A DNA stretch of 54,099 nucleotides from a virus: positions 1 through 54,099 of the IMG/VR virus record IMGVR_UViG_3300025102_000038, one strand, 5' to 3'. This document shows positions 9,301 to 49,004 of this stretch, piece by piece (the stretch's first letter is position 1; each line of letters opens with the position of its first letter). The notes beneath the pieces are model-generated. The model was not told where the DNA came from and did no database searches. It saw only the letters and a list, made by a program, of their open reading frames with translations. A program made the translations under genes and the position numbers.

Positions 9301-10331
9301 CAAAAGAAGCTTTCTTTGAAACATTCCCTCTAAGAGAAGCTCTTGAAACATTTGCAGGTTCTAATTTTAGAACTGGTGTAGCAGGTAATTTTGTAGATGA
9401 GTTTGCAAAACTACTTACAGAACAAGATGTAACACAGGGAGAAAGACTTACTGATGCAGGTGTGGCTGCTTTTTCAGAATACCTTGCATCTTGGGCAGTG
9501 CCTATGAACCAAGTTATAGATGCACAAAGAGCTTTAGAAGCTAGAGGTACAGTCTATAAAGAGACTTCTAAAGATCCTGAAATTTTAAATTTGGGTAGCA
9601 CTGCTTTAGAAGCATTTACAAAACCTTTTAGAAGACTAGACCCAACAGGTATATTAGTTAATGAAGAAGAGTTACCTGTAAAAGAAGATATATTCCAAGA
9701 GACAAAAGAACGTAAAGGATCTTTATACAAAGTTCTTACTGGTATAAATATGTATAGTGAAGAAAGTGATGTAGGTAAAAAACTTATATCTTTGGGTCTG
9801 ACCAAGTGGGATCTACAAAGTAAATCAAAGATACCTACAATAAAAAATTATGAGAACAAAATTATAAGAGAAAACTTAGATAAGGTACTGGCAGTAGCAG
9901 AAAGATATGCTGACATTGCAGGTAGAGAGTATGAAAGCAGAAGGGATGAGTTGTCCTCAGGATTCTTTGGGGGTATCAGCAAAAAGAAATTTGTAAACAT
10001 GCGAATAAAAGATCAAGTAATAAAGCAAGTAGATAGCCTAAGAGGAGATCCTAGAAATCTGTCTGTTATTGATGACAAGAGTAAAAGAATAGACTTGTTT
10101 TTACAGAGAGAGTATAGAAGGCTACCTACAAATGTAAAAACACAAGCCTATTATAAATTTAAAGGAAGGTATGACAGATTTCCGTTTGCCTTTACTAAAG
10201 ACTACTTTAGATCTCGATATCAAAACTATGATACATACACACAGGAGCAGAAGGATAGGGTGAAAGCTAGAGAAAAACAAAGAGATTTAAATAACCTAAC
10301 TGCCATTGGTAAATACATAGCAGGTCAATAA
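6321..10331 (+). CDS. Large internal virion / DNA-ejection protein candidate
   Basis: 1336 residues, the last gene of this rightward block. The N-terminus carries a duplicated unit: EEDFKMDYNIGG at about 3-14 and DEDFKMDYNMGA at about 32-43, inside a strongly acidic, probably disordered tail. From about 90 on it is mainly alpha-helical with long charged helices (310-480) and amphipathic segments near 860-910. No transglycosylase, protease or polymerase motif was found by eye. Size and position match the largest ejection protein of podoviruses (T7 gp16 is 1318 residues), but the similarity is of context only. Its stop overlaps the convergent gene by 7 nt. Confidence 0.55.
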   Translation: MDEEDFKMDYNIGGLDTKEQTDTNTNVVDDDDEDFKMDYNMGADEEAPSNQNSSHIKDTSQNSTNEHLTDNDQVPNVEVDVDKNRSLLDLGVDGVKYTAKYAPPDMANFATSPREWSSIPKGMTAAASNIMEFLGDLDQASYKLFGVWTWGGDGDNKWEFTDVLPQWVAPWRTEELKKYYKEENKRGHTFHALANAFDKSQEVFPEEYETGTAGFTFEASRFLTGLKGIEKTFKITKANKFFSKDRFKNMLSGEALTGYIIFGKDDEGLGDMLKLAGLNIPEALTQSGWDDTNDEVWVRRALGAVEGIFTGALLDSELYKGIGSVVKLVKGKEKAIKEKVKTGTISDETNKEIDDAMEEIESIDVEKGVEQAKTWKLKDDTVSQARKRIEKAQNATANRTNMQRMNNEQVVNKNVGYYNNLVREFEENLSINKNNGLKRGDDGFFTISNMENNKLVIDKDKITRLRKQILTAKEEKQKYSLSGQIAARSTIEGYEMGEGSIDYILDPDQIGNITADELDALSTRVLDTENIEALTTVAVELKNAYPNKWKNNQSVMENIFRLSTMNELTIAKDHPLWQALDKAGMSFEDFVTAHLGSASEAGRTLQKYSTLSKRLKPKTQKQRQDNMIKRQGWFGTYFRRVENIRRGLLVSQIATAARNLESGLIRSPVESLNNIIEVGLQDIAQGKFFANNRVFQRTTWQDSFANLRYIYSDRELAKGFTDILLNQPELQKFNNQMFNTINEIQVSTGRGSGTATDKVLSKMEDFTLALNAPNRWQDFLLRRATFLGEARRLFRQKMGVDLIEELENGRLKDLLRDAKDLNKTLDQEDGGVSAIELFAEATERALDLTYSSAPEVPLNKSIASFIVNNNLTVFVPFPRFMFKSMELMAENSAGALIVPIRRMIPESLGGQKGGLTQRDYRMISRNLTGGSAIMAATYLQTQKEEGEDYKLLKLDDGTMIDTTPLFPLRQFMFLGKIGREFWRATYDVGEGAAAKEAFFETFPLREALETFAGSNFRTGVAGNFVDEFAKLLTEQDVTQGERLTDAGVAAFSEYLASWAVPMNQVIDAQRALEARGTVYKETSKDPEILNLGSTALEAFTKPFRRLDPTGILVNEEELPVKEDIFQETKERKGSLYKVLTGINMYSEESDVGKKLISLGLTKWDLQSKSKIPTIKNYENKIIRENLDKVLAVAERYADIAGREYESRRDELSSGFFGGISKKKFVNMRIKDQVIKQVDSLRGDPRNLSVIDDKSKRIDLFLQREYRRLPTNVKTQAYYKFKGRYDRFPFAFTKDYFRSRYQNYDTYTQEQKDRVKAREKQRDLNNLTAIGKYIAGQ

Positions 10332-10480
10332 CGCTTCTTCATCTTCTCCATGTGATCATGCACTTGAGCCAGTAACTTCTTTAGCTCGTTGCAAACCTGC
10401 GTAAGAACCTTAATAGTATCATGGTCTTTGTTGATTTCTTTTCTGTCCATGAAAGCTTTTGCTTCTTTTTCTAATTCCAT
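10325..10480 (-). CDS. Small charged coiled-coil protein, 51 aa
   Basis: The longer frame runs upstream to 10594, but the ATG at 10480 has AGAGGTAG just before it and begins MELEKEAKAFMDRKEINKD, so this start is chosen. The protein is a single charged helix ending MEKMKKRY. It overlaps the C-terminal third of the Rmf-like gene in another frame and its stop overlaps the convergent virion gene. Last gene of the leftward operon; function unknown. Confidence 0.5.
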   Translation of the reverse strand: MELEKEAKAFMDRKEINKDHDTIKVLTQVCNELKKLLAQVHDHMEKMKKRY

Positions 10481-10673
10481 CTCTACCTCTATGTATATTA
10501 TCGTAATAGGCTGTGTTAAAGCCACGTTCCCACTCTCTATGTAGCATAGTGTCGGAACTATAGGGGTTGCGAATCTTTCCATAAACAAATGCATCGTAAC
10601 CTTTCATCCACTGTATCTTCAGTGGTGCATCATGTTTACCCAAACCTCTCTCTTTTCTAGATAAGTGTCTCAT
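10419..10673 (-). CDS. Ribosome modulation factor-like (Rmf/CrpP-type) protein
   Basis: 84 residues. Positions 24-58 read GYDAFVYGKIRNPYSSDTM then REWERGFNTAYYDN, matching the spacing of the RMF family: E. coli RMF has GYQAGIAGR, then CPY, then QWLGGWREA. Family members dimerise ribosomes into inactive 100S particles; some phage and plasmid relatives have been linked to other roles. AGGAG lies in the 3' end of the RNR gene 7 nt before the ATG. The basic tails on both sides are extensions relative to the 55-residue E. coli protein. What the phage does with it (host translation control, ribosome storage) is inference. Confidence 0.6.
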   Translation of the reverse strand: MRHLSRKERGLGKHDAPLKIQWMKGYDAFVYGKIRNPYSSDTMLHREWERGFNTAYYDNIHRGRDGIRKRSKSFHGQKRNQQRP

Positions 10674-23135: not shown

Positions 23136-24136
23136 GAATATACTCCTTCTAATATGTGCGAGATCACTGCACGAGTGAAGCCATTGCCGATCATCTTGTA
23201 GCGTTGGCTGTTTGATATAGGCTTGAGTTTGTGTACCCGAAACCCCATGTGTTTATCCTGCTCGACAAACTGTCCATACTCTGTCCATCCATCAGGCAAA
23301 GTCTGTAGACGCTCACATTCTAAAGGTGTTAATGCTCTCCAATGTAGCTCGTCTGTCTCTACCTTGGGCATTCGCCATCCACCTTGCATGGTAGTCAGGG
23401 TAGGACTCTTGCCTTGCCTAGAGTACACACGCTTGATGATGTCATAGCCTTTGAGGTCAGCTTCACCGACTTGCTTACAACCTTTGTGATTGAAGACTAC
23501 TTGTCTACGAGACTTCTCAAAGTACATCTTCATGCTACCACCTTTGAAGTAGTTGGCATCAATGCAGTAGGACTTGTCTCTATCTGCCATAGCACCATCT
23601 TCTAGCACATCATTGAGTACGATGCCCATGTCAGCTAACTCGTCATGTGGTGAGTTAGTTATGTAGACACGCTTTCTCTCCTGACCTGTCACCTTGCCAC
23701 TGTTGTGAGATCGCATCTGTGCATCTGGACGTATGGCACTGATACGCTTGTACCACTCATGCTTGGCTTTGGACTCGACATTCTCAAACAGATAGAACTC
23801 TGGGTTCAAACCTTCCAATGCATCATACATAACCTCAGACAAGTCACGACTATCTGAAGTGCCAAGCTGTTTACCTGCCACGCTGTAAGGCTGACAAGGG
23901 AAACCTGCGATCAGAAGAAAGACATCTCTGCCCAACAGTTCTCGCCAACCATTGGCATCGCCATGATGTATGGCATGAGGTATGTTATGTTTGGACACAG
24001 CACTAGCATACTTGTCTGTTTCGAATGTGTGATACTCGTAGTCACCATCAGGTGATACATCAATACCTGCATCAAGGCATGAGAGGTAGGCACTGTCTGT
24101 GCCACCACACAAACTAACTACTATCTTTTTCGTCAT
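23132..24136 (-). CDS. C5-cytosine DNA methyltransferase
   Basis: 334 residues with the ordered motifs of the family: motif IV GFPCQPYS with catalytic C81, motif VI FENVES (E118, N119, V120), motif VIII QERKRVYIT (Q152, R154, R156), motif IX-like RALTPLECERLQTLPDGWT and motif X RYKMIGNGFTRAVI. Motif I is degenerate (VVSLCGGTDSAYL). It transfers a methyl group from AdoMet to cytosine. No restriction endonuclease gene is beside it, so an orphan enzyme protecting phage DNA from host restriction, or regulating it, is likely. The ATG at 24136 has AAGGAG 7 nt upstream; a GTG at 24142 is less likely. Confidence 0.92.
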   Translation of the reverse strand: MTKKIVVSLCGGTDSAYLSCLDAGIDVSPDGDYEYHTFETDKYASAVSKHNIPHAIHHGDANGWRELLGRDVFLLIAGFPCQPYSVAGKQLGTSDSRDLSEVMYDALEGLNPEFYLFENVESKAKHEWYKRISAIRPDAQMRSHNSGKVTGQERKRVYITNSPHDELADMGIVLNDVLEDGAMADRDKSYCIDANYFKGGSMKMYFEKSRRQVVFNHKGCKQVGEADLKGYDIIKRVYSRQGKSPTLTTMQGGWRMPKVETDELHWRALTPLECERLQTLPDGWTEYGQFVEQDKHMGFRVHKLKPISNSQRYKMIGNGFTRAVISHILEGVYS

Positions 24137-24302
24137 TAGCACTCTCCTTTCTTAAATCGTTTATCATGTTTACCCACTTAGACATCTCTTGCTGATGCCT
24201 AAGTTGGGCTTCTTTCTCACGTTTGTCCTGCACAATCTGCGACTTCTTACGCAGGATGTGAGGATTGCGTGGCTTCCACGCTTTGATCTTCTTGTTAGCC
24301 AT
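24114..24302 (-). CDS. Small basic/charged helical protein, 62 aa
   Basis: MANKKIKAWKPRNPHILRKK forms a strongly basic N-terminus; residues 24-55 form a charged helix (QDKREKEAQLRHQQEMSKW). Overlaps the methyltransferase start by 23 nt. No family recognised; nucleic-acid or protein-binding accessory by composition only. Lies 1 nt downstream of the DUF932-type gene, so it is co-transcribed. Confidence 0.5.
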   Translation of the reverse strand: MANKKIKAWKPRNPHILRKKSQIVQDKREKEAQLRHQQEMSKWVNMINDLRKESANDEKDSS

Positions 24303-24303
24303 G

Positions 24304-25161
24304 TTAAGCCACTACCAACTGCTTGAAGGTAGGTGAGTCTACCCACTTGGCAACCTCTTGCTCTCGCTTGAACAGGGTGACTTCTCTGGTATCCTTACCA
24401 GTGTTCCTGATCTTGAAGTTGTTTCTCTCGTCACCATAGGTAGCGTAGTTGGTGAAAGCACTGTACAGTGAGAATACATTCTCACCCCTAGTATGAGACT
24501 CGTCTTTGTACAAGGAGAACATTTTCTCTGCCTTCTTCTCAGAAGGTATTATCTTGGACAAGATACTTGGCACATCAAGACTAGCAAGATTTATCTTGCC
24601 CCAAGTATTGAGCCTACCCATACGATCAGAGAAGTCTGTGTACCCATCGTATAGTCTCTTCTCCAGACCACCGATGGTAAAGTTAGAAGTGTTCTTACAC
24701 TTCGTCATGTCATACTCACCTGTGATCATACCATTGGTGCAGAAGAAGTCGATAGCACCAAAGTAAATCAGATTACCACATGTACCATCCACACCATGCA
24801 ACGCAATGATACGATAGCCTGTCTTGGTCTTGTGACCATTGTTGGTAACGATATCATAAGTCACATTAGGTAATGTGATATCCATTCGTAGCCAACCACC
24901 ACCATGAGCAGATCGGAAGGCTACAGTCATACCTTCTAGCTGTTCGGGTGTATGGTTGTCACGGACAACCTTGTAGACAGAAGAGCAGAATGCTCTGTGT
25001 CCTGCAGGGCTAAAGCCCTTGCCCATATGAGCAATGACATCGCCAGTCACAGGGTTGACCACAAACTTGTGACCTTCCATCCGTGACTTCTCGTACTGAG
25101 GTACGAAATCACAGATCTCTGGAAGTTGTTGGATTGTGTTAGGTGTAAAATCTAAAGCCAT
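24304..25161 (-). CDS. DUF932-type phage/plasmid protein
   Basis: 285 residues. The middle contains IDFFCTNGMITGEYDMTKCKNTSNF, the conserved C-N-G...K-T segment of the DUF932 family, preceded by the predicted beta-rich region with AFRSAHGGGW and ALHGVDGTCGN. The family is widespread in phages and plasmids with no defined activity, often near early or DNA-maintenance genes. AAAGGAG lies upstream of the ATG. The coding sequence is enriched in short perfect hairpins (for example 24459-24485, 24550-24565, 24584-24599), a milder version of what is seen at 28049-28804. Confidence 0.75.
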   Translation of the reverse strand: MALDFTPNTIQQLPEICDFVPQYEKSRMEGHKFVVNPVTGDVIAHMGKGFSPAGHRAFCSSVYKVVRDNHTPEQLEGMTVAFRSAHGGGWLRMDITLPNVTYDIVTNNGHKTKTGYRIIALHGVDGTCGNLIYFGAIDFFCTNGMITGEYDMTKCKNTSNFTIGGLEKRLYDGYTDFSDRMGRLNTWGKINLASLDVPSILSKIIPSEKKAEKMFSLYKDESHTRGENVFSLYSAFTNYATYGDERNNFKIRNTGKDTREVTLFKREQEVAKWVDSPTFKQLVVA

Positions 25162-25181
25162 AATTGACTCCTTTCTCTTGG

Positions 25182-25421
25182 TTAATGATAAGTTGGCATC
25201 TCAGGATGCTGTTCATAGACATAGCCTACGTCTGGCTCTGAGTCAAGTAGATACTCTTTTACAAAGAGAAACTCTACCTTGGCATCAGGATAGCAAGACC
25301 TAGTTACGTCCAATGCGTAGTTAATTGCAGATGAACTGTCCATAATGGTGGGGTACGAGTAAGACACTCGCACCACACCCTTCTGTTCATCTACGGATAC
25401 AAAGACCTCGTAGTGGATCAT
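25182..25421 (-). CDS. Hypothetical protein, 79 aa
   Basis: Small alpha/beta-looking acidic protein: strand (HYEVFVSVDEQ, VVRVSYSY), helix (SSSAINYALDVTRSC), strand (AKVEFLFVKEY). Starts 2 nt after the preceding gene ends, with GAAGG in that gene's end as ribosome site. No family recognised. Part of the leftward early block. Confidence 0.55.
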   Translation of the reverse strand: MIHYEVFVSVDEQKGVVRVSYSYPTIMDSSSAINYALDVTRSCYPDAKVEFLFVKEYLLDSEPDVGYVYEQHPEMPTYH

Positions 25422-25423
25422 TG

Positions 25424-25738
25424 TTAGGCTACCTTCTTCTGGATGAGGAAGGACTTGATTGGCACATATTGTGCCACTCTTCGCTTGCCCTTTCTATCGT
25501 AGGCATGGAAGCAAGAGTAACTCTTGCCAAAGTTCAAGCGAACCAAAGGTTCACCTGACTTGCCACCTTTACCCTTACGGATAAACCATCCTGTCTCTTG
25601 GACTTTGTCATTCCTGTAGATGACAGGCTTGTAGCCTTGTAGCTTCAGCTTGATTGCTGTAGCAATAATTTTGATGGCAGTGAAACCACCAGAGATTTTT
25701 GTGCCTTTTGGCAAGTTGTCAAAGTTAAATGTAAGCAT
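25424..25738 (-). CDS. Hypothetical basic protein, 104 aa
   Basis: Begins MLTFNFDNLPKGTKISGGF, then a helix (AIKIIATAIKLKLQG) and a basic strand-rich region (WFIRKGKGGKSGEPLVRLNFG, YDRKGKRRVAQYV). Basic composition suggests nucleic-acid binding but no motif is recognised. AAAGGAG precedes the ATG. First gene after the hairpin/promoter element at 25801-25847 and hairpin repeat copy 1. It contains internal perfect hairpins at 25460-25476 and 25511-25527. Confidence 0.55.
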   Translation of the reverse strand: MLTFNFDNLPKGTKISGGFTAIKIIATAIKLKLQGYKPVIYRNDKVQETGWFIRKGKGGKSGEPLVRLNFGKSYSCFHAYDRKGKRRVAQYVPIKSFLIQKKVA

Positions 25739-25764
25739 GGTAATGCTCCTTTCTGTGTTGTGTC

Positions 25765-25781
25765 TCCCAACAATGTCGGGA
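25765..25781 (-). repeat. 17-nt hairpin repeat, copy 1
   Basis: Plus-strand TCCCAACAATGTCGGGA in the gap before the gene at 25424-25738. Minus-strand RNA folds as UCCCGAC, 3-nt loop, GUUGGGA with a G-U pair. The plus-strand RNA would have an A-C mismatch. Confidence 0.85.
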
Positions 25782-25800
25782 AACGTTGGGTTTATGTACC

Positions 25801-25847
25801 ACAGTTATATAGTACTTTCACTAAAGTTCAAGTACTATATTAACTGT
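25801..25847 (-). promoter_or_regulatory. Conserved-loop hairpin A (possible promoter/operator or structured leader)
   Basis: Stem TATAGTACTT/AAGTACTATA (25808-25817 with 25830-25839) encloses the 12-nt loop TCACTAAAGTTC. An outer ACAGTT/AACTGT extends it, with a single bulged base, to a 17-bp stem. The loop is identical to that of the hairpin at 27800-27863 while stem bases differ in a compensated way. On the minus strand, TTGAAC (25826-25831) and TATAAC (25804-25809), 16 nt apart, also look like a sigma70 promoter for the gene ending at 25424. Both readings are possible. Confidence 0.6.
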
Positions 25848-26232
25848 ATACTCTAATGAGAGGTCTTCCCTCTCTTATCATGAGCTTGACCATCGTCATG
25901 TCATTGCCCACTGTCTCACCTGTATCTTCGTAGACAAAGGTGGTGTTCTTGTATGGATTGTACGTCACATTTCTCCACGTTTTACCTGAGTAGTAGTAAT
26001 CGTCCCACTCTTCAGCCGTAAACTTGTAGGGTCTATACCCTACAGCAAAGGCATGGACATTCTTCTTGCCCTCTTCAATGACACGCTTACGTCCCCCTTG
26101 TCTTACGACAAAGCTAGGGTTGGTAAGAAATACGTCATTGGTTCGGTCAATCACACGGTTAGTCTTGTAGTCCTGTAAGGAATACATACCCTTGTGAATA
26201 TTCCAATATGCTCTTACGAATTGATCATACAT
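25840..26232 (-). CDS. Hypothetical protein, 130 aa
   Basis: The ATG at 26232 follows a perfect GGAGGTGA ribosome site and overlaps the upstream gene by 8 nt. Tyr/Trp/Arg-rich sequence (MYDQFVRAYWNIHKGMYS, FTAEEWDDYYYSGKTWRNV) with a C-terminal MIREGRPLIRVYS. It may be a small beta-rich protein; no family recognised. Its stop codon touches the edge of hairpin A. An internal perfect hairpin is at 26026-26043. Confidence 0.55.
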   Translation of the reverse strand: MYDQFVRAYWNIHKGMYSLQDYKTNRVIDRTNDVFLTNPSFVVRQGGRKRVIEEGKKNVHAFAVGYRPYKFTAEEWDDYYYSGKTWRNVTYNPYKNTTFVYEDTGETVGNDMTMVKLMIREGRPLIRVYS

Positions 26233-26518
26233 AGTCACCTCCAAAAGTTATAGTTGTTTCTCTCAAGCTACTATAAGTAGCTCCTACTGGTACAATTACC
26301 TTGTGTCCTTCAGACCATAGGTGTTCACCTATAGACTTCCAAGCTTCTTCCAGATAATAGTCAAGATCTGTATAGAATATACAGAGAGGATACTGCTTAA
26401 CTTTGTTAAGCCTTGTTGTACCTTCATCATAGGCATAGATATCATATGCCCACTTCTTTGCTATATAGGACAAAGACCTACTATGATCAAGAGGTAATTC
26501 GTCTTGAAATACTATCAT
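26225..26518 (-). CDS. Hypothetical acidic protein, 97 aa
   Basis: Aromatic, acidic protein (YIAKKWAYDIYAYDEG, LCIFYTDLDYYLEEAWKSIGEHLW) ending in a beta-type tail. Two ATGs stand 3 nt apart; the second (26518) is 7 nt from GGAG, matching the spacing in the related cassette before 26823, so it is chosen. Unknown family. Confidence 0.5.
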   Translation of the reverse strand: MIVFQDELPLDHSRSLSYIAKKWAYDIYAYDEGTTRLNKVKQYPLCIFYTDLDYYLEEAWKSIGEHLWSEGHKVIVPVGATYSSLRETTITFGGDYV

Positions 26519-26522
26519 CATG

Positions 26523-26660
26523 CTACTCCTTTGCGTCTATGGAATCTTCAAGAACTTGTTTAAGTTCTAGTAGAACAGCTAAAGTAAACTCATCTCTGAT
26601 GAGATACTTTACCTCATGTATTTTATTTTTCTGCACAATAATTTTATCTTCATTGTCCAT
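26523..26660 (-). CDS. Small helical protein, 45 aa
   Basis: Short ORF between two AAAGGAGTAGCAT cassettes. It begins MDNEDKIIVQKNKIHEV and continues as a charged helix (EFTLAVLLELKQVLEDSID). Its TAG stop is part of the next gene's ribosome-site cassette. Probably real from this repeated layout; function unknown. Confidence 0.5.
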   Translation of the reverse strand: MDNEDKIIVQKNKIHEVKYLIRDEFTLAVLLELKQVLEDSIDAKE

Positions 26661-26664
26661 CATG

Positions 26665-26823
26665 CTACTCCTTTCTGCTTGAGTTTATTTCTATTTCAGT
26701 TAAAAGATACTCTTGTTCAGTTATATAAGAATAACTTTCAAGAAACTCTTCCTTCGATAGTTGATGAAAATCAACCATCTTTTCTGCATCATCAGAAAAA
26801 TCTTTGTATTCAACGTCAGTCAT
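26665..26823 (-). CDS. Small acidic protein, 52 aa
   Basis: ATG shares one base with the preceding TAA (TAATG) and has GGAG 7 nt before it. Sequence is acidic and helical (MTDVEYKDFSDDAEKMVD, LSKEEFLESYSYITEQEYLL). No family recognised. Such tiny acidic early proteins often bind host enzymes in other phages; that is only a guess here. Confidence 0.5.
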   Translation of the reverse strand: MTDVEYKDFSDDAEKMVDFHQLSKEEFLESYSYITEQEYLLTEIEINSSRKE

Positions 26824-26984
26824 TATGCTACTCCTTTCTGACGTAGTCTAAGTTTACGGACAAGCCTTCTCTCTCTAAGAGAGTTGTGCTTATCCCTTCT
26901 GTCATTCCCAACATTGTCGGGAAACACTTTCCTCTTCTTGGAAGAGGAAGCATTCTTTTGAAAGTTAATATTACTTTGTGTCAT
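26823..26984 (-). CDS. Small basic protein, 53 aa, containing an in-frame hairpin repeat
   Basis: Ribosome site CGGAG precedes the ATG; it overlaps the upstream gene by 14 nt and the next one by TAATG. Very basic (SSSKKRKVFPDNVGNDRR, RERRLVRKLRLRQKG), so it may bind nucleic acid. The residues PDNVGN are encoded by the 17-nt hairpin repeat at 26906-26922, read in the same frame as in the gene at 28049-28804. Confidence 0.5.
   Translation of the reverse strand: MTQSNINFQKNASSSKKRKVFPDNVGNDRRDKHNSLRERRLVRKLRLRQKGVA
26906..26922 (-). repeat. 17-nt hairpin repeat, copy 2 (inside a gene)
   Basis: Plus-strand TCCCAACATTGTCGGGA within the 53-residue basic gene, encoding part of FPDNVGND. Same stem and G-U pair as the other copies; the matching block with copy 4 extends to about 21 nt. 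Confidence 0.85.
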
Positions 26985-27732
26985 TTGCTATCTCCGATGC
27001 TTTAGCTTTTCTGTTACCATGTGCAGGGAAACCAATAATGGTTTCTCTGTGAGACATAGCACAGAGTTTACATTTAGCACAGTCCATATCGTCCCGATAT
27101 GTAGCAGGACAGACTGTGACCTTCTTCCCCTTCGGGGTCTTGATGTTCCACAGATCAACTCTTGATCTGTACTCATCATAAGTCTCTGACCAGACACCTT
27201 TCTTGACATGCTTTCTTTCGTAGAAAGATGGCATGACAGCAGTGACTGGAGCAGGTTTGTGTCCAAAGGACACAAGTTCTGCCAAGTCATCAGCATGAGA
27301 CATGCTGTTACCTGACAAGTTAATGACAAAGCTTGCTTGTTTGTTACAGACCATGACTATCAGTCTATTCATAGGATCTGACATGTCATGATGAGTATAA
27401 GTGAAGCCTTTCTTGCCACCAAGTCTACAAGCTTCTTCAAGCTTGAAGACCTTATCAGCATCAATCTCCCCATTCTTATGGGGAAGATCTCCTGCTTGAT
27501 TATGTCTCCACAAAGCTGTGGCTTTGTCCTGTACTGTCTGACAAAAGTCATCCCAGTCAAGACCAATGTCTGGAACTCTGTTCCAGTGTCCCTTCAAAGG
27601 GTAGCCATCTGCATAGCAACCCTTTCTTCTTAGAGGACAAGAGGTAGGACAAGAGTCCTCTTCAGTCGTACTGACTGAAATCTCACCAGTCTTGATATTC
27701 GATGACTTCAAAGTCAAGTGAACTTTACTCAT
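26971..27732 (-). CDS. Cys-rich phage protein (DUF7227-type)
   Basis: 253 residues. Signatures include GEISVSTTEEDSCPTSCPL, GCYADGYPLKGHW, LWRHNQAGDLP, FTYTHHDMSD, FVINLSGNSMSHADDLAEL, VTVCPATYRDDMDCAKCKLC and IIGFPAHG. I recall this series from a widespread phage family called DUF7227 (name from memory). Cysteines cluster near residues 28-39 and 208-222, and suggest a metal or Fe-S site; the activity is not known. The ribosome site GGAG lies in the loop of a TTAAAC/GTTTAA hairpin. The coding sequence has about ten perfect stems of 7 bp or more (e.g. 27085-27101, 27150-27170, 27257-27275, 27510-27527). Confidence 0.7.
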   Translation of the reverse strand: MSKVHLTLKSSNIKTGEISVSTTEEDSCPTSCPLRRKGCYADGYPLKGHWNRVPDIGLDWDDFCQTVQDKATALWRHNQAGDLPHKNGEIDADKVFKLEEACRLGGKKGFTYTHHDMSDPMNRLIVMVCNKQASFVINLSGNSMSHADDLAELVSFGHKPAPVTAVMPSFYERKHVKKGVWSETYDEYRSRVDLWNIKTPKGKKVTVCPATYRDDMDCAKCKLCAMSHRETIIGFPAHGNRKAKASEIANDTK

Positions 27733-27733
27733 T

Positions 27734-27748
27734 TTAAACTCCGTTTAA
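27734..27748 (-). promoter_or_regulatory. Ribosome site in a GGA hairpin loop
   Basis: Minus-strand TTAAAC GGA GTTTAA, ending 1 nt before the ATG of the Cys-rich gene. The Shine-Dalgarno core GGAG lies across the loop and first closing pair, so pairing of the stem could modulate initiation. Confidence 0.55.
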
Positions 27749-27754
27749 GTTGCT

Positions 27755-27771
27755 TCCCAACATTGTCGGGA
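27755..27771 (-). repeat. 17-nt hairpin repeat, copy 3
   Basis: Plus-strand TCCCAACATTGTCGGGA in the leader of the Cys-rich gene, between hairpin B and the ribosome site, the same relative order as copy 1 after hairpin A. Confidence 0.85.
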
Positions 27772-27799
27772 ATGGTTTCGGTTTGGTCGGCACTAAAGT

Positions 27800-27863
27800 C
27801 TATAACACTAATAGAAATATAACACCTTCACTAAAGTTCAGGTGTTATATTTCTGTGTTATAG
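27800..27863 (-). promoter_or_regulatory. Conserved-loop hairpin B
   Basis: Inner perfect 15-bp stem AGAAATATAACACCT/AGGTGTTATATTTCT (27813-27827 with 27840-27854) around the 12-nt loop TCACTAAAGTTC, then a 4-nt bulge and an outer 9-bp stem CTATAACAC/GTGTTATAG. The loop is identical to hairpin A, while stem pairs differ by compensated changes. A promoter reading is weaker here (CTGAAC, poor -10). It lies in the 316-nt gap 27733-28048, which also holds repeat copy 3, two ribosome-site hairpins, a 26-codon ORF and two terminator-like hairpins. Confidence 0.65.
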
Positions 27864-27886
27864 TCTAAGTCTCTTCGGCAATCAAG

Positions 27887-27967
27887 TCATAGTCTGAATC
27901 CCCCACTAAGCCAATAGCAATAAAAAAAGACTAGCATAAATGCTAGTATCAAAAGTAAACAAGTCAT
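27887..27967 (-). CDS. Possible 26-aa membrane peptide
   Basis: ATG 27967 preceded by CGGAG (8 nt), which sits in a GGA hairpin loop. After MTC the peptide is almost wholly hydrophobic (LLLILAFMLVFFYCYWL), ending SGGFRL. The same DNA contains a terminator-like hairpin with a T-run (27922-27947), so it may be non-coding instead. The ribosome site with its hairpin, like that of the next gene, favours translation. Confidence 0.4.
   Translation of the reverse strand: MTCLLLILAFMLVFFYCYWLSGGFRL
27922..27947 (-). terminator. Terminator-like hairpin (or part of the small ORF)
   Basis: Minus-strand ACTAGCA TTTA TGCTAGT followed by C and seven T. Looks like an intrinsic terminator for the leftward transcript, second after 27998-28034, but lies within the possible 26-codon ORF. 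Confidence 0.45.
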
Positions 27968-27969
27968 AG

Positions 27970-27986
27970 TTTAATCTCCGATTAAA
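27970..27986 (-). promoter_or_regulatory. Ribosome site in a GGA hairpin loop
   Basis: Minus-strand TTTAATC GGA GATTAAA, a 7-bp stem with the Shine-Dalgarno GGAG in the loop, 2 nt before the ATG at 27967. Same design as 27734-27748. Confidence 0.5.
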
Positions 27987-27997
27987 AGGGTTGAAAC

Positions 27998-28034
27998 AAA
28001 AAAAAGAGCATAGCACCTTAGTGCTATACTCTTT
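27998..28034 (-). terminator. Intrinsic terminator after the hairpin-rich gene
   Basis: Minus-strand stem AAAGAG-T-ATAGCAC, loop TAAG, GTGCTAT-G-CTCTTT, one internal mismatch, running into eight T (27998-28005). Just downstream of the stop of the gene ending at 28049. Confidence 0.75.
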
Positions 28035-28040
28035 AGGTGA

Positions 28041-28775
28041 AAGGTAGCTTACGCTACCTTCCTCTTCTTCTGAGAAACCTTTGGTTTCTCTTGTGAAGCA
28101 TGGTGCAACTCTATGAGTTGCAGTATAACCTCTTCGAGGTTAAGTTGCTTCTTAGAAGCAAGTTCAGCAGTGAACTGAGCCAAACCCTTGGGGTTTGTAG
28201 GGACTTTAACCTTGGTTAACTTCTTTACAGAAGTTACCTCATTCCCAACATTGTCGGGATTGACCTCAACCTTTGGTTGAGACTGAGAAGTCGTAGACTT
28301 CTTCTTGGAAGCCTTTGGCTTCTTCCTTGTTGAGAAGTCACCGACTTCTTCAACAAATGCTCTTTTCATCGCTGAAAGCGATGTAAAGCCAAGGGATTGT
28401 TTTCCACTAGTGAGAACTCTGTTCTCAAGCCAAGCAGTGATTTGATCATGGTTCTTATAGAACCATAATGTTTCACTTCTCCTCTGAGAAGTGAGTTTGT
28501 TCAGAGAACACTCTTCCAATCTCTGATTGGAGATCCTGCCGTATTTGCTTTCCAAGCAAAGCTCATCGATCAGCTTACCAGTTTGGTAAGCTAGTCCACC
28601 AGACTGAGTATCAGTCTTGTGAAGCTTGGAATGCTCTAACAGAAACTGAGCAGTTTCTGAAGCAATGACAGCTCCCCTAGCTTCAAAAGTACCACTGTAC
28701 TTTTGGAAAGCTTGAGGTTTCTTAGAAACCTTAGGAGCAACTTTAGTTGCTTTAGCAGAGTTGCTCTTTAGAGCA
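28041..28775 (-). repeat. Array of short perfect stem-loops inside a gene
   Basis: Twenty perfect stems of 7-9 bp with 3- or 4-nt loops can be read directly, e.g. 28041-28060 (AAGGTAGC/GCTACCTT), 28072-28090, 28104-28122, 28126-28142, 28145-28161, 28181-28197, 28218-28235, 28265-28281, 28286-28302, 28367-28383, 28411-28427, 28448-28466, 28473-28494 (TCACTTCTC/GAGAAGTGA), 28515-28531, 28544-28560, 28572-28592, 28601-28617, 28640-28659, 28684-28705 (CAAAAGTAC/GTACTTTTG) and 28715-28731. About eight weaker or bulged ones fill gaps. Stem sequences differ from one another, so this is not a direct-repeat or CRISPR array. Confidence 0.9.
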
Positions 28776-28804
28776 GTTACGAGTTTGGATTTTGTGTTTG
28801 GCAT
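28049..28804 (-). CDS. Lys/Ser-rich protein encoded by a hairpin-saturated gene
   Basis: 251 residues, first gene of the leftward early block; GGAGG precedes the ATG. Basic low-complexity ends (SNSAKATKVAPKVSKKPQAF; SQEKPKVSQKKRKVA) flank a more globular middle (about 38-150, e.g. ETAQFLLEHSKLHKTDT, GKLIDELCLESKYGRI, LWFYKNHDQITAWLENRV), then KKPKASKKKSTTSQ. No family recognised; nucleic-acid binding is suggested by charge. The coding sequence is extraordinary: some 28 short stem-loops lie almost end to end (see the array feature). PDNVGN is encoded by an in-frame copy of the 17-nt repeat. Confidence 0.7.
   Translation of the reverse strand: MPNTKSKLVTALKSNSAKATKVAPKVSKKPQAFQKYSGTFEARGAVIASETAQFLLEHSKLHKTDTQSGGLAYQTGKLIDELCLESKYGRISNQRLEECSLNKLTSQRRSETLWFYKNHDQITAWLENRVLTSGKQSLGFTSLSAMKRAFVEEVGDFSTRKKPKASKKKSTTSQSQPKVEVNPDNVGNEVTSVKKLTKVKVPTNPKGLAQFTAELASKKQLNLEEVILQLIELHHASQEKPKVSQKKRKVA
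28243..28259 (-). repeat. 17-nt hairpin repeat, copy 4 (inside a gene)
   Basis: Plus-strand TCCCAACATTGTCGGGA in the hairpin-saturated gene, encoding NPDNVGNE in the same frame as copy 2. Confidence 0.85.
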
Positions 28805-28820
28805 TTTGCCCTCCTTCTAT

Positions 28821-28865
28821 TAATTGGTTAACACATTTGTAAACAAATGTTGTGTTAACCAATTA
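28821..28865 (-). promoter_or_regulatory. Large leader hairpin before the hairpin-rich gene
   Basis: Perfect 15-bp arms TAATTGGTTAACACA (28821-28835) and TGTGTTAACCAATTA (28851-28865) with an inner short stem (TTTGT/ACAAA). It lies 16 nt upstream of the ATG at 28804, next to the ribosome site, in the 5' leader; role could be mRNA stability, translation control or an operator. Confidence 0.7.
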
Positions 28866-28878
28866 CTAGGGTTGCCGA

Positions 28879-28895
28879 TCCCAACAATGTCGGGA
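28879..28895 (-). repeat. 17-nt hairpin repeat, copy 5
   Basis: Plus-strand TCCCAACAATGTCGGGA, flanked by GATCC and GGATC that could extend the stem, upstream of the leader hairpin. Confidence 0.85.
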
Positions 28896-28901
28896 ATGGA
28901 T

Positions 28902-28925
28902 CATACCCCCTTGGGGTATGTTTTT
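28902..28925 (+). terminator. Terminator-like hairpin reading rightward
   Basis: CATACCCC CTT GGGGTATG followed by TTTTT on the plus strand. Could stop antisense transcription; there is no rightward gene before it, so it may instead be one more leader hairpin of the leftward transcript. Confidence 0.4.
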
Positions 28926-29227
28926 GGATGACCAAAGAATGACCATAGGCTTTAGCCTAAACCTAATTTTTTCAGAAATCTTGACCTCAATCGACTGATT
29001 GCCTATGGCAACTGATGTGATAACAGTTGCTTTTAAAAACAAACTCGTTTGTTTTCAAGGCGATGGGCATTCCAAGGTGCATTGCGATGCACAATTTGCG
29101 TTCACCACGCATCGGGATGCACGATTTTACCTGCATCGGGCATCGGGACGCATGGGGAAGGGGGGGTGCGTCAGATATATACATATATAAATACACAGAT
29201 TAGGAAAAATGAGTGTTAACCACTTTG

Positions 29228-29406
29228 GTACGGATATAGACAGGGGTGTCAAATAATTGGTATTGACTACTAAAAGCATACATGATATAATTATATAAAC
29301 TAGGATGACATATTAAGTGTTACATTAAAATGTTTATTCAATATAAATAAATAATCACTTACATGTAACATATTAAATGTATGTCTATATAGGGATTTAT
29401 CCGTAC
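29228..29406. repeat. Inverted repeat flanking the rightward promoter
   Basis: GTACGGATATAGACA at 29228-29242 recurs inverted at 29382-29406, where 10 extra bases split it between GTACGG and ATATAGACA. Between the arms lie AT-rich DNA and the promoter. Confidence 0.6.
29263..29291 (+). promoter_or_regulatory. Sigma70-type promoter for the rightward operon
   Basis: TTGACT (29263-29268), 17-nt spacer, TATAAT (29286-29291). The best promoter match noticed in the window, ahead of the rightward gene block starting at 29429. Confidence 0.7.
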
Positions 29407-29428
29407 TTTTTTAAATTAATGTTTGACA

Positions 29429-29638
29429 ATGGGAAAAAAATCCGTAAAACTATACACAGATAATGTAATTGAAGAGTTTTATTCTGCTGTGGCTAATAAC
29501 AACTTAAATAAATTACATATACCTCACAGTGATGTTTTCTACGTAAGAGCCGCAGTGGAAGCCCACTATGGCAGATCTTTTACTTTGAAAGAGGTAGAAG
29601 ACGCTATGATAGCTGAAGGTTGGTCAGACCATAAATAG
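29429..29638 (+). CDS. Small protein, 69 aa (first rightward gene)
   Basis: MGKKSVKLYTDNVIEEFYSAVANNN, ending FTLKEVEDAMIAEGWSDHK. Helical with a compact C-terminal helix-turn-helix-like layout (VFYVRAAVEAHYGRSFTLKEVEDAM), but no HTH can be claimed. An in-frame TTG 6 nt upstream is part of a TTGACA; the ATG at 29429 is preferred although its ribosome site is weak. Immediately followed by the Lys/Gly repeat gene. Confidence 0.6.
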   Translation: MGKKSVKLYTDNVIEEFYSAVANNNLNKLHIPHSDVFYVRAAVEAHYGRSFTLKEVEDAMIAEGWSDHK

Positions 29639-38805: not shown

Positions 38806-38956
38806 TTATATAGGGTTCTTGATAGTACAGAATCACGCTATTATGGAGCAGACAAACGACTTAGTCACACTTCATAGATCACAAGGTGCTATCGCTATGC
38901 TAAGACGATTACGACAACTAAGGGATCATGTAAACTCCAATGGGTCTACTAAGTAA
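38711..38956 (+). CDS. Small head-associated protein overlapping the portal gene
   Basis: 81 residues. KDHWDSFSDYIGFLIVQNHAIMEQTNDLVTLHRSQGAIAMLRRLRQLRDHVN resembles the small helical proteins that follow portals in many marine phages. Its first 31 codons overlap the Gln/Asn-rich end of the portal in another frame (N-terminus MNNNNQNNPQ), so low complexity appears in both frames. AGGAA is near the ATG. Role unknown. Confidence 0.6.
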   Translation: MNNNNQNNPQINLYSKLKPLVNNKDHWDSFSDYIGFLIVQNHAIMEQTNDLVTLHRSQGAIAMLRRLRQLRDHVNSNGSTK

Positions 38957-41900
38957 AGCTGTAAAACAGGGATTAATAGACAATCCCCAAATCATTACTA
39001 AGAAACAGGATGAAGTTGCTAAAGAAGCAAAGGATAGGGCTGACTTAAATGCAAACGATCCTAACACAAATCCTGATGTGTATGATGAGCAGATGGCAGA
39101 TCCTAATGTGTCTAAGATCACAGTGCCTGAAGATCCCACTCCTATTCTTGGAAGTATGTATGGAGACTTAGTGCAAACATTTGAGTCCATGCCCTTTTAC
39201 GGAAAAGAGACAATATCAGGAGCAAACTTTGTAGAACAGTTAAATTATTATGTAAAAAATATTCAAGGCAGAAATATACCATTGTATAAATTTATGGAGA
39301 AGCGAGGAGCTTTTAAAAAATTTAGAGACAATCCCAAAAAACAATTTACAAAAAAAGAAATATTAGATTCTTTAAAAGACTTTTCTTCTTTTGAATTTAG
39401 AATAAGAGTGGATAAAGATACATTATACCGACCTCAACAAAGACTACCTATTGATGAGAGTGCAGGAGATTATAAAAAAGTAGGTTATGCTGAAGTAACT
39501 TTACATGCTCCCATAGATAATACTGTACCTTCAATACAAAAATTTGCAGACAAACACTTTAAGGGAAATACTATAGGACACACTAGATCTTCTTTTGTGT
39601 ATAACAATAAAACTAAAGAGTCGGCTGTTATGCCTGAAGAGGTACAAGGAGATCTTTTTCAAAACATTGGAAAAACAGTAGATGTTACAAGAGATAGATT
39701 AACTAACATACCTACATATGATAATTTTCAAGAGACAACTTTGGTTGGTAATCAAACAATGAGTTTAGTAGGTATTAGAGCAGATACTACACTAACTAGA
39801 TCTGAATCCCCTAGTTGGTTTGCTACTTCATTTATAGCACCTACTCGATCTTATAACAACCTAAAAGAAAATTTAAGGCTTGAATATTTTCTTATGGAAG
39901 ATAATGCAATGCTACTTAATAGGATAAAAGAAGGTAGAGTTCCACTAAATGAAGAAGTTGCTAATGCCATAGGAAGAGATAAAGGTATAATGAACATTGG
40001 CTCTCCAGATGCAACAAGCAGGATGGATGAAAACAAAAGTAGATTTATATCACAATTATTTGCTAAAGGTTTTTCACCAAAACAAATTAGAGAAAGGCTA
40101 GAAAAATATTTTTCTAAATCTAGTTCTGAACTAAAAGGTGAAAGTTTAACTGAAAGACAGATACAATCATTTTTAAGAAAAGAGAAACAAAATAAAATAG
40201 ACCATTATAAAGAAGTATTTAATAAAAATTTTATTGGTATTGGAGAGGAAGCTCAAGATATTAGTGGTGGCACTATAACTGCATTTAGTGAGTTACCTAG
40301 ATTAGGTGCATTAATAGATAAATTAGAAAAAAATTATGCAACAGGTTCGGCTGAAAGACAACCTTTTTTTACATTGCGATATATGCAAAGTTCTCTTTAT
40401 GAAACTCTAAGAAATTTAGAACTTGGAGAATCATTTGACGATATAACGGATTTTTCTCAATTTAAAAGTTACGAAAAACTAAGAAAGTTAAATGCACAAA
40501 AATTAAAAGATATTCAAAACACTATGCCTAGAACAATGGTATCTGGTTATGACTATAGAAATCCTAGTGCGATACCTGTATTTATGCAACGTTTTGCTGC
40601 TCATGGTTTTAACATGACAGAGAGAACAGATATGATTAATAGTATTCTTTCTAAATATAATTTAAATTATTTTAGAGGTGCAAATATAAGAAAGGGTCAT
40701 CAAGACGGACAGGTAAATGATGGTGAGAGAGATAGATTTTTAACTGATGGTTCTACTAATTATGCAGGGCAAATAAAATATCCTGATGGTTCTATTAAAA
40801 CTTATATGAATGCCAATGAAAGATTTTTAAGATATTTTGATGAAATAAATGAAGATAGACAAATAGGAGCTTCTACTTGGTCTGACCACCATCCTGAATA
40901 TCAAGAGCATTTAATTCAAGAAGAATTTAAGTTACCTGATTTTGAAGATGCATATCCAAACATATCACAACCTTTACCTTACAATTTTGAAGACACTAAA
41001 AAAAGAATGAAAAAAATTGTTGACGATTTAAATGAACAATACAAAGCTATAAATGAAGCCAGACAAGAGTTTAGCAAAAATTATATGAAAGCTTTTGAAG
41101 AGGATAATTTACATAATATACCAGTAGATCCTTTTGGAGATGCAGGTCCTTTTTCTTATACCCGACTCACAAATGTTACTATGTGGAGAGAGACTAAAAA
41201 TAAAGCAGTAGTAGGAAAAGATGCAGGTGACTATGGACGTTACTATGATGATACAATTAGTCCTCCACAAAAAGAAGTTATATCTACTGACTATGAACAA
41301 AATTTTATAGATAATCAAAATGCTGTTACACAGGAACGAGATGCTTACAATAGAAAAGAAGATGAAATTACAGATTTAGAAAATGATCCACGATTGAATG
41401 ACCCATCTGGTGATGATGGTCTTTCTGAACAACTAGACGAGTTATACAATGATCTATCCGATATAGCACTAGATATAGATAAGGCAGAAGAAAGAATGTT
41501 AAGAGATTTAACAGCAAAAAATATAGGCAATTTTGCTACACTCTTTGACCCTTTTGAACATGTATTTGATCCGAAACAAATAAATGAACTAAAGTTAATT
41601 GACTTTGATGAAATAGTAGATGACTATGGAACAGAAAAAGATCCTAGATTTGGTGCAAGCTTTGTTGCTCATGTAATGCGTGAAGTTACAAAACAAGATT
41701 ATTTAAATGGTTTAAATGATTTTGGTTATACTGTGTTTAGTGAGCTAGATATGAATAGATTAAAAAATACTCTTAGTAGTGTCGAAGCCAGAAAAACTTC
41801 TATGGAATCATATCAAAGATTAGAGGATCTGTCATATAACCCATTAAAGAAAGATGACTATATTACAAAAGGTTTAAACAGGGTTGTAGAAAAAGATGAT

Positions 41901-43718
41901 TTACCTATAGCAGACAAGTTAGACTTTTTGTACAAAATGGTTATTGGGCAAATGATGCTTGCTAAAAAATTAAAAACAAACAAAGTAATCATACCAAATG
42001 CTTCTGAGTTAATTAATTTAAGAGAAAAGCCTACCCCCGAACAAATGGTAAAATTAGGAAGATTTAAGGCTAATAGTAGAGAGTTTAAAAAGGCTGAAAA
42101 AGAGTATGATGAATTAAGGCACACAAGAGCAGATGGTACAAAGTATAGTGATAGACAAAAAAGAAAAGGTAAAGATGATCTCTATAATAAATCAAGAGTA
42201 TTAATGATGGATCTATTAAAGAAAAGATTTGGGGATGATGTAAAAATATATGAGATAAAACAAACTTTTAACAATCCTCCTAGAGAAGTACCTGCAACAG
42301 TTATAGAGTTTAACTTTGACTTTGATCCTGAAAAACAAATGATAAAAATGAAAGAGGGTGGGCTTGTACAGATAGACAATATGCGAGAGTCAATGAATTT
42401 GTTTACAGACCCAAAAGCATTTGGTGATGATGAGTATAGACAAAATGCTATACGAGAAGCTTTGGAAGCAGGTGTAATATCATTTAACTTTAACGAAGGG
42501 GGAGTAACTGATCCTGCACCTAAACCACCGATGATAGATTATATAACACAACAAGACTATAAAGAAAGAGCAGGAGAACTGTTTGAGAAAGATGACTTAT
42601 ATAGAAAGTATCCCAGTTCTTTTTATGCATATAGAAAACAGACGTTTGACTTTCCAGATTCTGCAGAGCAACCTGAGTTTGAAAAGGCTAGTCCAATGCT
42701 AGGTAGCTTAGAGTTTGAAGCTGATGTTATTCCCAAGTTTAGAACTACAGCTTTAGGCAGGCTAGGGTTCTATAGTGCAAGTGATGGCACAGGAATGTCT
42801 GATCCAAAGGTAGAAAAGGTAGACGAAGCTTTTCAAGGATCACAAGGATCATTTCGTCCATCAAATATGACCATAGCATTAACAAATGATCCCGAAGAGG
42901 GAGATAGAATACGAGCTTATAGAAGAATAGTATCAGAAAAAGATCCACTAAGAATACCACCATCCTCGCTTCCTCATCCTGAGTTAGAGAGAATGTACAC
43001 TTTAAATGCAGAAAATCCTACACCTGAACATGAATCTATTCATAGAGCAATATTAATATTACAAAACTATTATGCAAATGATAGAGACTATGTTGTTAAG
43101 AAGTATGGTGAAGAAACAGGTAATGTTTTATTTGATTTATTAAATCCTTCTAGAGATAATAATTATTTTCAACTATCTAATGAAGTATTAACTGAACAAA
43201 ATGATGCCATAAGATCAGGTGCTAAGTTTGATTCTGAAACGTATTTACGAAGAACACTTGGTGAGAGAGATGTAGATTTAAGAAACTATAAAGCAAAATA
43301 TAAAGACATGTTTAACGAAAAAGACTCATTAGCAAACAATATAGATCGCATTGTTAGAGCAGGGGGAGAAGAACCTAGACATATACTAAATAGAATAAGA
43401 GGTAGTTCTAGAGAAGGACATGCAGACATTGTATTGAGTATATTTGATAGAATAACAAAGCAGTTACCTAACTTAGAAGAGTTAGCCAAAGAAAGATTGT
43501 ATGACAGAAATCCTAAAGGTGGACCTACCTTTGATGCAAGAGGAATAGCAAAGGGAAGTTTAGACAAAGGGTTTTATGATAACTTAAAAGTAGACAGAGC
43601 ATCTGGAGAGGAGACAAAAAACTTTCTGCAGAGACAACTACAAAAATTTAGAGATCGAAGAAATTTGAAATCTAATATTAGAGCAAGTGAATCAATGGAC
43701 TTAGGTGGAAGGTTTTAA
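38940..43718 (+). CDS. Very large polyvalent-type virion protein, 1592 aa
   Basis: The longest gene of the window. Residues about 180-240 (VGYAEVTLHAP, TIGHTRSSFVYNNKTKESAVMPEEVQGDLFQNIGK) and about 990-1135 (DFLYKMVIGQMMLAKKLKTNKVIIPNAS, REVPATVIEFNFDFD) resemble the barely characterised domain in large polyvalent proteins of phages with HxR and EEIQSDWHQ-like blocks; here EEVQGD. MKEGGLVQIDN and FNEGGVTDP follow. Long charged helices dominate the rest. Located between portal and scaffold genes; probably enters the cell with the DNA or assists assembly. I claim no catalytic activity. Confidence 0.5.
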   Translation: MGLLSKAVKQGLIDNPQIITKKQDEVAKEAKDRADLNANDPNTNPDVYDEQMADPNVSKITVPEDPTPILGSMYGDLVQTFESMPFYGKETISGANFVEQLNYYVKNIQGRNIPLYKFMEKRGAFKKFRDNPKKQFTKKEILDSLKDFSSFEFRIRVDKDTLYRPQQRLPIDESAGDYKKVGYAEVTLHAPIDNTVPSIQKFADKHFKGNTIGHTRSSFVYNNKTKESAVMPEEVQGDLFQNIGKTVDVTRDRLTNIPTYDNFQETTLVGNQTMSLVGIRADTTLTRSESPSWFATSFIAPTRSYNNLKENLRLEYFLMEDNAMLLNRIKEGRVPLNEEVANAIGRDKGIMNIGSPDATSRMDENKSRFISQLFAKGFSPKQIRERLEKYFSKSSSELKGESLTERQIQSFLRKEKQNKIDHYKEVFNKNFIGIGEEAQDISGGTITAFSELPRLGALIDKLEKNYATGSAERQPFFTLRYMQSSLYETLRNLELGESFDDITDFSQFKSYEKLRKLNAQKLKDIQNTMPRTMVSGYDYRNPSAIPVFMQRFAAHGFNMTERTDMINSILSKYNLNYFRGANIRKGHQDGQVNDGERDRFLTDGSTNYAGQIKYPDGSIKTYMNANERFLRYFDEINEDRQIGASTWSDHHPEYQEHLIQEEFKLPDFEDAYPNISQPLPYNFEDTKKRMKKIVDDLNEQYKAINEARQEFSKNYMKAFEEDNLHNIPVDPFGDAGPFSYTRLTNVTMWRETKNKAVVGKDAGDYGRYYDDTISPPQKEVISTDYEQNFIDNQNAVTQERDAYNRKEDEITDLENDPRLNDPSGDDGLSEQLDELYNDLSDIALDIDKAEERMLRDLTAKNIGNFATLFDPFEHVFDPKQINELKLIDFDEIVDDYGTEKDPRFGASFVAHVMREVTKQDYLNGLNDFGYTVFSELDMNRLKNTLSSVEARKTSMESYQRLEDLSYNPLKKDDYITKGLNRVVEKDDLPIADKLDFLYKMVIGQMMLAKKLKTNKVIIPNASELINLREKPTPEQMVKLGRFKANSREFKKAEKEYDELRHTRADGTKYSDRQKRKGKDDLYNKSRVLMMDLLKKRFGDDVKIYEIKQTFNNPPREVPATVIEFNFDFDPEKQMIKMKEGGLVQIDNMRESMNLFTDPKAFGDDEYRQNAIREALEAGVISFNFNEGGVTDPAPKPPMIDYITQQDYKERAGELFEKDDLYRKYPSSFYAYRKQTFDFPDSAEQPEFEKASPMLGSLEFEADVIPKFRTTALGRLGFYSASDGTGMSDPKVEKVDEAFQGSQGSFRPSNMTIALTNDPEEGDRIRAYRRIVSEKDPLRIPPSSLPHPELERMYTLNAENPTPEHESIHRAILILQNYYANDRDYVVKKYGEETGNVLFDLLNPSRDNNYFQLSNEVLTEQNDAIRSGAKFDSETYLRRTLGERDVDLRNYKAKYKDMFNEKDSLANNIDRIVRAGGEEPRHILNRIRGSSREGHADIVLSIFDRITKQLPNLEELAKERLYDRNPKGGPTFDARGIAKGSLDKGFYDNLKVDRASGEETKNFLQRQLQKFRDRRNLKSNIRASESMDLGGRF

Positions 43719-46687: not shown

Positions 46688-46692
46688 AAAAG

Positions 46693-46720
46693 TTGACATT
46701 TAAAAATTTATACATATAAC
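46693..46720 (+). promoter_or_regulatory. Promoter ahead of the coat protein gene
   Basis: TTGACA (46693-46698), 16-nt spacer, TATAAC (46715-46720), in the 231-nt gap 46688-46918. A second TATAAT lies at 46725. Would give extra transcription of the abundant coat protein. Confidence 0.6.
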
Positions 46721-46918
46721 TATGTATAATACGTAAATACATACACATAGCCCCTTTATGGACACCTAAAGTATGTATTTTTATCACAAACGACAATGCG
46801 ATGAGACTTACCTAGTTTGTCTAGCCCAGTGTGTACAACTGCACCTAGAATTAAATTAGCCCCTATATCAGTAATTGTAATTTGTATCTGTGACCTTGAA
46901 AAGTAAGGAGGAACAACT

Positions 46919-47986: not shown

Positions 47987-47999
47987 GGAGTATTGAACT

Positions 48000-48530: not shown

Positions 48531-48543
48531 ATTAAAACTTAGG

Positions 48544-48577
48544 GGGCAGGTGTAACAGGATTGACCTGCCCTCTATT
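48544..48577 (+). terminator. Intrinsic terminator after the coat operon
   Basis: GGGCAGGT (48544-48551) pairs with ACCTGCCC (48564-48571) around a 12-nt loop, followed by TCTATTTTA. Likely partial termination so that head genes are made in excess over tail genes. Confidence 0.7.
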
Positions 48578-48596
48578 TTAACATAAAGGAATACTA

Positions 48597-48995: not shown

Positions 48996-49004
48996 GAGGA
49001 TAAA

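Follow-up and report, generated by a model that had tools for sequence, protein, structure and literature searches.

What does it mean that the ribosome-binding sites (RBSs) of two neighboring early genes in a marine phage are each displayed in the GGA loop of a small hairpin, and is this an arrangement that other genes and other phages share? The stretch of DNA analyzed here (hereafter the window, 54,099 bases) comes from an HMO-2011-type marine phage, as it carries the replication gene set common to HMO-2011 and the CRP phages. Compared with the proteins of Puniceispirillum phage HMO-2011 and of the Roseobacter phages CRP-1 and CRP-345, its DNA polymerase shows 63-66% identity, its helicase 69-73% and its RNR 62-69%. 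From about 29 kb the replication genes are read leftward, and the structural genes are encoded in the opposite direction. Two large ORFs in the window (38940-43718 and 6321-10331, 1592 and 1336 aa) retrieved no Pfam or PHROG match. The two hairpins lie at the head of the leftward early operon, where we annotated the following features.

28049-28804, minus strand: first early gene, of the gp01 family; CRP-1 and CRP-345 have its homologue as their first gene (by homologue comparison)
27998-28034, minus strand: terminator-like hairpin and T-tract after gp01, just upstream of the hairpin at 27970 (clade-specific)
27970-27986, minus strand: RBS hairpin TTTAATC-GGA-GATTAAA, 7 bp with a GGA triloop, of the 26-codon ORF (from sequence and relatives)
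27887-27967, minus strand: 26-codon ORF encoding a hydrophobic peptide (from sequence)
27800-27863, minus strand: long imperfect hairpin between the 26-codon ORF and the DUF7227 RBS (from sequence and relatives)
27734-27748, minus strand: RBS hairpin TTAAAC-GGA-GTTTAA, 6 bp with a GGA triloop, of the DUF7227 gene (from sequence and relatives)
26971-27732, minus strand: Cys-rich DUF7227 (PF23872) gene, 253 aa, behind an RBS hairpin (per Pfam)
26990-26998, minus strand: weak third instance, ATC-GGA-GAT with 3 contiguous pairs, before gene 26823-26984 (from sequence)
28800-28810, minus strand: GGCA-AAA-TGCC over the gp01 start codon, 4 bp, with the Shine-Dalgarno (SD) sequence AAGGAGG outside the stem (from sequence)

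Both GGA-loop hairpins are real and are built exactly as the first-pass annotation had described them. The hairpin at 27734-27748 is followed by AATG, the start of 26971-27732, and that at 27970-27986 by CTATG, the start of the 26-codon ORF. The 27970 hairpin is identical in 8 of 8 close relatives, and at the place of the 26-codon ORF relatives have another short ORF. The 27734 hairpin is kept in relatives L014 and L011 despite replacement of the downstream gene, and in L011 it reads TTAAC-GGA-GTTAA, a matched deletion having occurred in both arms. The long imperfect hairpin at 27800-27863 likewise shows a two-sided change, from T-A to A-T, in relatives. A similar CGGAG setting had been claimed before the gene at 26823; it is present but weak, with 3 pairs, and its homologue in L014 is a better match (TAAAC-GGA-GTTTTA, 4 pairs). 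The stem over the gp01 start codon, which had been grouped with the others, we do not judge to be the same device, because it has only 4 bp and leaves its SD sequence outside. The terminator-like hairpin after gp01 was rejected as a conserved feature, since it is confined to the window clade (0 of the 68 loci outside it).

To ask how widely the element occurs, we examined 71 related early loci of the gp01 family for C-GGA-G triloop hairpins with a stem of at least 5 in distinct contexts. All but one of the 40 such triloops lie 9-13 nt before an ORF-opening ATG (SD function by itself would keep GGAG invariant, and the C was fixed by the search pattern), and the antisense strand holds 3 C-GGA-G triloop hairpins of any placement. 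The hairpins comprise 29 different stem and spacer sequences in 32 loci; the contigs are related and hairpin counts are not independent events, so that it is safer to count distinct stems and unrelated downstream genes. By the latter measure, the 48 ORFs found behind stems of at least 4 fall into 20 families, which include DUF7227-like proteins, short hydrophobic peptides and a gp01 homologue (in L114). Pairing was then assessed in 69 contexts taken regardless of pairing, with shuffles as the reference. Watson-Crick pairs occur at stem positions 2-5 in 55, 59, 57 and 43 of the 69, compared with shuffle means of 30, 41, 36 and 26, and A-T and T-A pairs are both common, so the RBS hairpin undergoes compensatory pairing changes on the transcribed strand. 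In these same stems there are 19 cases of G.U against 4 of the mirror combination, A.C; G.U is thus tolerated far more than A.C, which indicates that the sense strand is the strand that folds. The proposal that the hairpins might be a shared translation-control device is upheld to this extent: many phages of the HMO-2011 type carry the same C-GGA-G geometry, a conserved hairpin that holds the SD sequence at a functional distance from the start codon, and they do so ahead of about 20 unrelated ORF families. Lack of conservation, which would count against such a device, was checked for and is not what we found, since the geometry recurs with covarying stems across phages.

The element is also restricted in position. 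CGGAG SD sequences with a stem of at least 4 number 37 of 48 at the head of the early operon, 1 of 8 further downstream and 0 of 21 on late strands (early head versus late, p=5e-10). At the early head, GGAG is most often preceded by C (48/82), and it is the CGGAG sites that are found in hairpins with a stem of at least 5: 30 of 48 (62%), versus 2 of 20 for AGGAG (10%), 2 of 13 for TGGAG and 25% of random positions, for which reason the excess is not only a local hairpin background. Chance or base composition was rejected as the source of the hairpins on the basis of shuffles, codon shuffling, and the antisense and late-strand comparisons. At the level of sequence, then, the recurrence of the element, its position, its sense-strand bias, covariation and G.U tolerance, its restriction to the early head and its use by unrelated genes are demonstrated.

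The comparison with random positions matters, as the RBS hairpins at 27734 and 27970 are themselves members of a dense array of hairpins, to which the following features belong.

24300-29100, minus strand: hairpin array, densest at 26.8-29.1 kb (from shuffles, folding and relatives)
28243-28259, minus strand: hairpin TCCCGACAWTGTTGGGA, one of five copies, with a G.U pair that forms only on the sense strand (from sequence)

Between 26.8 and 29.16 kb there are 44 perfect hairpins, whereas twenty dinucleotide shuffles contained 1-8, and the local folding z-score reaches -7.1 at 28 kb. Most array hairpins lie within genes. Under synonymous codon shuffling, the gp01 gene has 23 internal hairpins versus 3.3 expected (maximum 7), the DUF7227 gene 12 versus 1.5, and gene 24304-25161 10 versus 1.7, and the polymerase, helicase, RNR and terminase genes showed no hairpin excess in the same analysis. 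Across about 70 gp01-bearing contigs, the density rises from about 1 hairpin per 500 bp to 7.2 at gp01 and comes back down over about 1.5-2 kb, and the position of the array is conserved across HMO-2011-type phages (L005-L016, L040-L145). The gp01 genes of eight close relatives contain several two-sided changes. In L011 an additional 21 nt are inserted in frame, and this insertion is itself a hairpin. The other TCCCGACAWTGTTGGGA copies (25765, 26906, 27755 and 28879) share one orientation and occupy coding and non-coding positions, the sequence being read in frame as PDNVGN in two genes; several copies per contig occur only in the window clade. The array may act at either the RNA or the DNA level: the sense strand folds little more strongly than the antisense strand (pooled p 0.006), and in the alignment of the divergent group B, A.C cells (106) outnumber G.U cells (78). 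The hairpin-saturated early coding region is possibly a larger finding than the RBS hairpins.

The RBS hairpins could accordingly be read as a by-product, in which a region-wide process turns the operon head into hairpins and the SD sequences are simply caught up in it. Such a process might be selection favoring structure in the early mRNA, or a templated form of mutation by which palindromes are made and mended; template switching is able both to generate RNA hairpins and to preserve them, with paired changes (PMC8794818). That the array and the RBS hairpins occupy the same region is in keeping with this reading, as is the gain by L011 of a whole hairpin in a single insertion. Nevertheless, we consider it rather improbable. 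CGGAG sites lie above the local background and AGGAG sites below it, and G.U prevails over A.C. In addition, stem columns in gp01 are less variable than others among the eight close relatives (24/371 versus 68/390), which points to selection.

We therefore turn to what the hairpin might do. Action at translation initiation is suggested by the GGAG-to-ATG spacing, which is that of an SD sequence, and we propose that the element is a structured ribosome-binding site acting in messenger RNA. In this model the GGA of the SD sequence GGAG would form the triloop, and the last G would pair with the preceding C, the C-G pair topping an A/U stem of 4-7 bp that lies 6-9 nt before the AUG. The hairpin would set translation initiation jointly for these early genes, most likely by serving as an operator: a phage or host factor, either an RNA-binding repressor or an endoribonuclease with a RegB-like preference for GGAG, may recognize the C-GGA-G triloop and switch the early genes together, and where the factor is missing the weak stem would open and the ribosome bind. 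We give this reading, a structured RBS that is probably the operator for a candidate factor in joint early-gene control, a probability of roughly one half.

Another possibility is that no factor is involved and that the small hairpin presents the SD sequence passively, keeping it exposed and insulated within a structured early mRNA. The RBS hairpins do stand where the mRNA is most structured, per the folding z-score at 28 kb and the density profile, they have the optimal SD spacing, and ribosomes could open so weak a stem. The RBS hairpins are predicted to be only marginally stable (-1 to -5 kcal/mol at 20 C), and folding within 110 nt of context gives the closing pair a mean probability of only 0.28, so that neither a simple thermodynamic lock nor a reliable presenter of the SD sequence is predicted. 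Indeed, the predicted probability of being unpaired is lower for the GGA of the hairpins than at ordinary AGGAG sites (0.44 versus 0.54), and far lower for the fourth G (0.10 versus 0.41). A larger loop freeing the whole GGAG would do better, yet AGGAG sites are rarely in hairpins. The folding prediction thus modestly favors recognition by a factor over passive insulation, which we regard as a possible but weaker contender.

For the operator reading, the closest functional precedent is found in the sites of T4 RegB, which likewise use GGAG as the SD sequence of early phage genes. RegB cuts GGAG in early-gene SD sequences, and for efficient cleavage without its cofactor S1 it is reported to need the GGA unpaired and the fourth G constrained (PMC3014915). 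The predicted hairpins have this very geometry at early-gene SD sequences. The natural T4 sites differ in being unstructured with an A-rich 3' flank (GGAGRAYARAA). Small hairpins at or over a ribosome-binding site are also the mark of the T4 gp43 and gp32 operators and of MS2-type hairpins; these, however, each serve one gene and a known autoregulator, whereas here there are about 20 unrelated families and we found no regulator. SD-sequestering RNA thermometers (ROSE, fourU) resemble the element in having a weak A/U-rich SD hairpin that is more stable in the cold, but here the GGA is in the loop rather than melted from a stem, there is no fourU or ROSE motif, and there is no Rfam match. Rfam yielded nothing over the gathering score in 24000-29500, with two sub-threshold and irrelevant matches.

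Two further systems share the look of the hairpin. A GGA in a hairpin loop overlapping the SD sequence is the hallmark of sites of the CsrA/Rsm type, and a host CsrA binding the loop GGA could repress translation. CsrA-type sites call for an ANGGAN loop with A two bases before the GGA, but the present triloop is closed by C-G and the base in question is A in only about half of the 69 contexts (T in 25). To our knowledge, CsrA is not known from SAR116, roseobacters or SAR11, and the loop sequence makes this explanation very unlikely. The promoters of the N4 virion RNA polymerase, hairpins in single-stranded DNA, come close in geometry, with a 5-7 bp stem and a 3-nt loop that in N4 P2 is C-GGA-G. 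N4 promoter hairpins stand on the template strand, but the GGA here is on the sense strand and is tied to start codons at SD spacing. No RNA polymerase was recognized with Pfam or PHROGs among the proteins of the window, large ORFs included. An N4-like promoter was rejected on strand (39 of 40 sense at SD spacing, 3 antisense) and on start-codon linkage, and we attach almost no weight to it.

Efforts to identify a trans-acting factor among the window proteins using Pfam and PHROGs found none. The RegB family (PF10715) and phage RNA polymerase (PF00940) had no match in the window, and these are weak negatives because no control genome matched either. The gp01 protein was considered as a required partner and is not obligatory, since HMO-2011 has the hairpins and no gp01; an AlphaFold model of gp01 (pLDDT 62) retrieved no convincing PDB match, and no gp01 relative was found in the genome contigs searched. 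An 84-aa protein (10419-10673, minus strand) matches the ribosome modulation factor RMF below threshold (E 1.4e-4), with weak or no homologue support; as a partner it was rejected, lying below the Pfam cut-off and being unsupported by homologues. The genes 24304-25161, 25182-25421 and 25840-26244, the last a Phage_L5_gp82 family protein, are common to HMO-2011, CRP-1 and CRP-345, and no homologue of them was found within the initial 20 kb of CRP-2, CRP-603, CRP-207, CRP-3 or HTVC033P. On account of this distribution we put the three genes forward as candidates for the factor.

Most of the multi-hairpin contigs that we examined are HMO-2011-type, with L169 having the highest number of hairpin RBSs in one contig, six. 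Exact matches to two versions of the element were counted in 62 and at least 119 IMG/VR stretches, respectively, both figures being ascertained by pattern. Among isolates, HMO-2011 has two RBS hairpins (positions 85 and 458) and CRP-1 one strong copy (position 647), and only stems of 1-2 were seen in the parts examined of CRP-2, CRP-603, CRP-207 and CRP-3. For the HMO-2011 gene annotated at 433-1182 (L019), position 469 is the start that the hairpin and the homologue alignments favor over 433.

Structured SD sequences are already known; a loop-displayed element used by many genes in an abundant phage group is without a description that we could find, and searches of the open-access PMC literature found no account of these hairpins. 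Phages of the HMO-2011 type have been described as a dominant and widely distributed group in the ocean (PMC9038755). We found no account of early-gene timing in these phages in open-access PMC papers. An RNA element common to about 20 unrelated early genes offers a handle on that timing in the cultured HMO-2011 and CRP-1, and its conservation predicts a factor that recognizes RNA and suggests shared control of early protein production. The hairpin-filled coding sequences make a strong case of structure selected inside the genes of a DNA phage, which is seldom considered in phage annotation. More tentatively, the RBS hairpins and the hairpin-filled early coding sequences may be parts of one RNA-level program, in which the head of the early transcript would be a chain of small hairpins, its genes would share a loop-displayed SD sequence, and a phage factor would translate, protect or destroy the messages together.

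Additional observations were made in the course of this work. A rarer second class of hairpin, AAG-GAA-CTT with the SD sequence AAGGAA, occurs before ATG in L118, L122, L125, L142, L144 and L093. In the window, the divergent intergenic region at 29050-29160 contains a cluster of GCATC/GATGC palindromic repeats adjoining G/C runs, which could be origin or operator sites. Finally, in the structural gene region at 46001-49000 (plus strand), the sense-strand folding z-scores are mildly elevated (-1.8 to -3.1).
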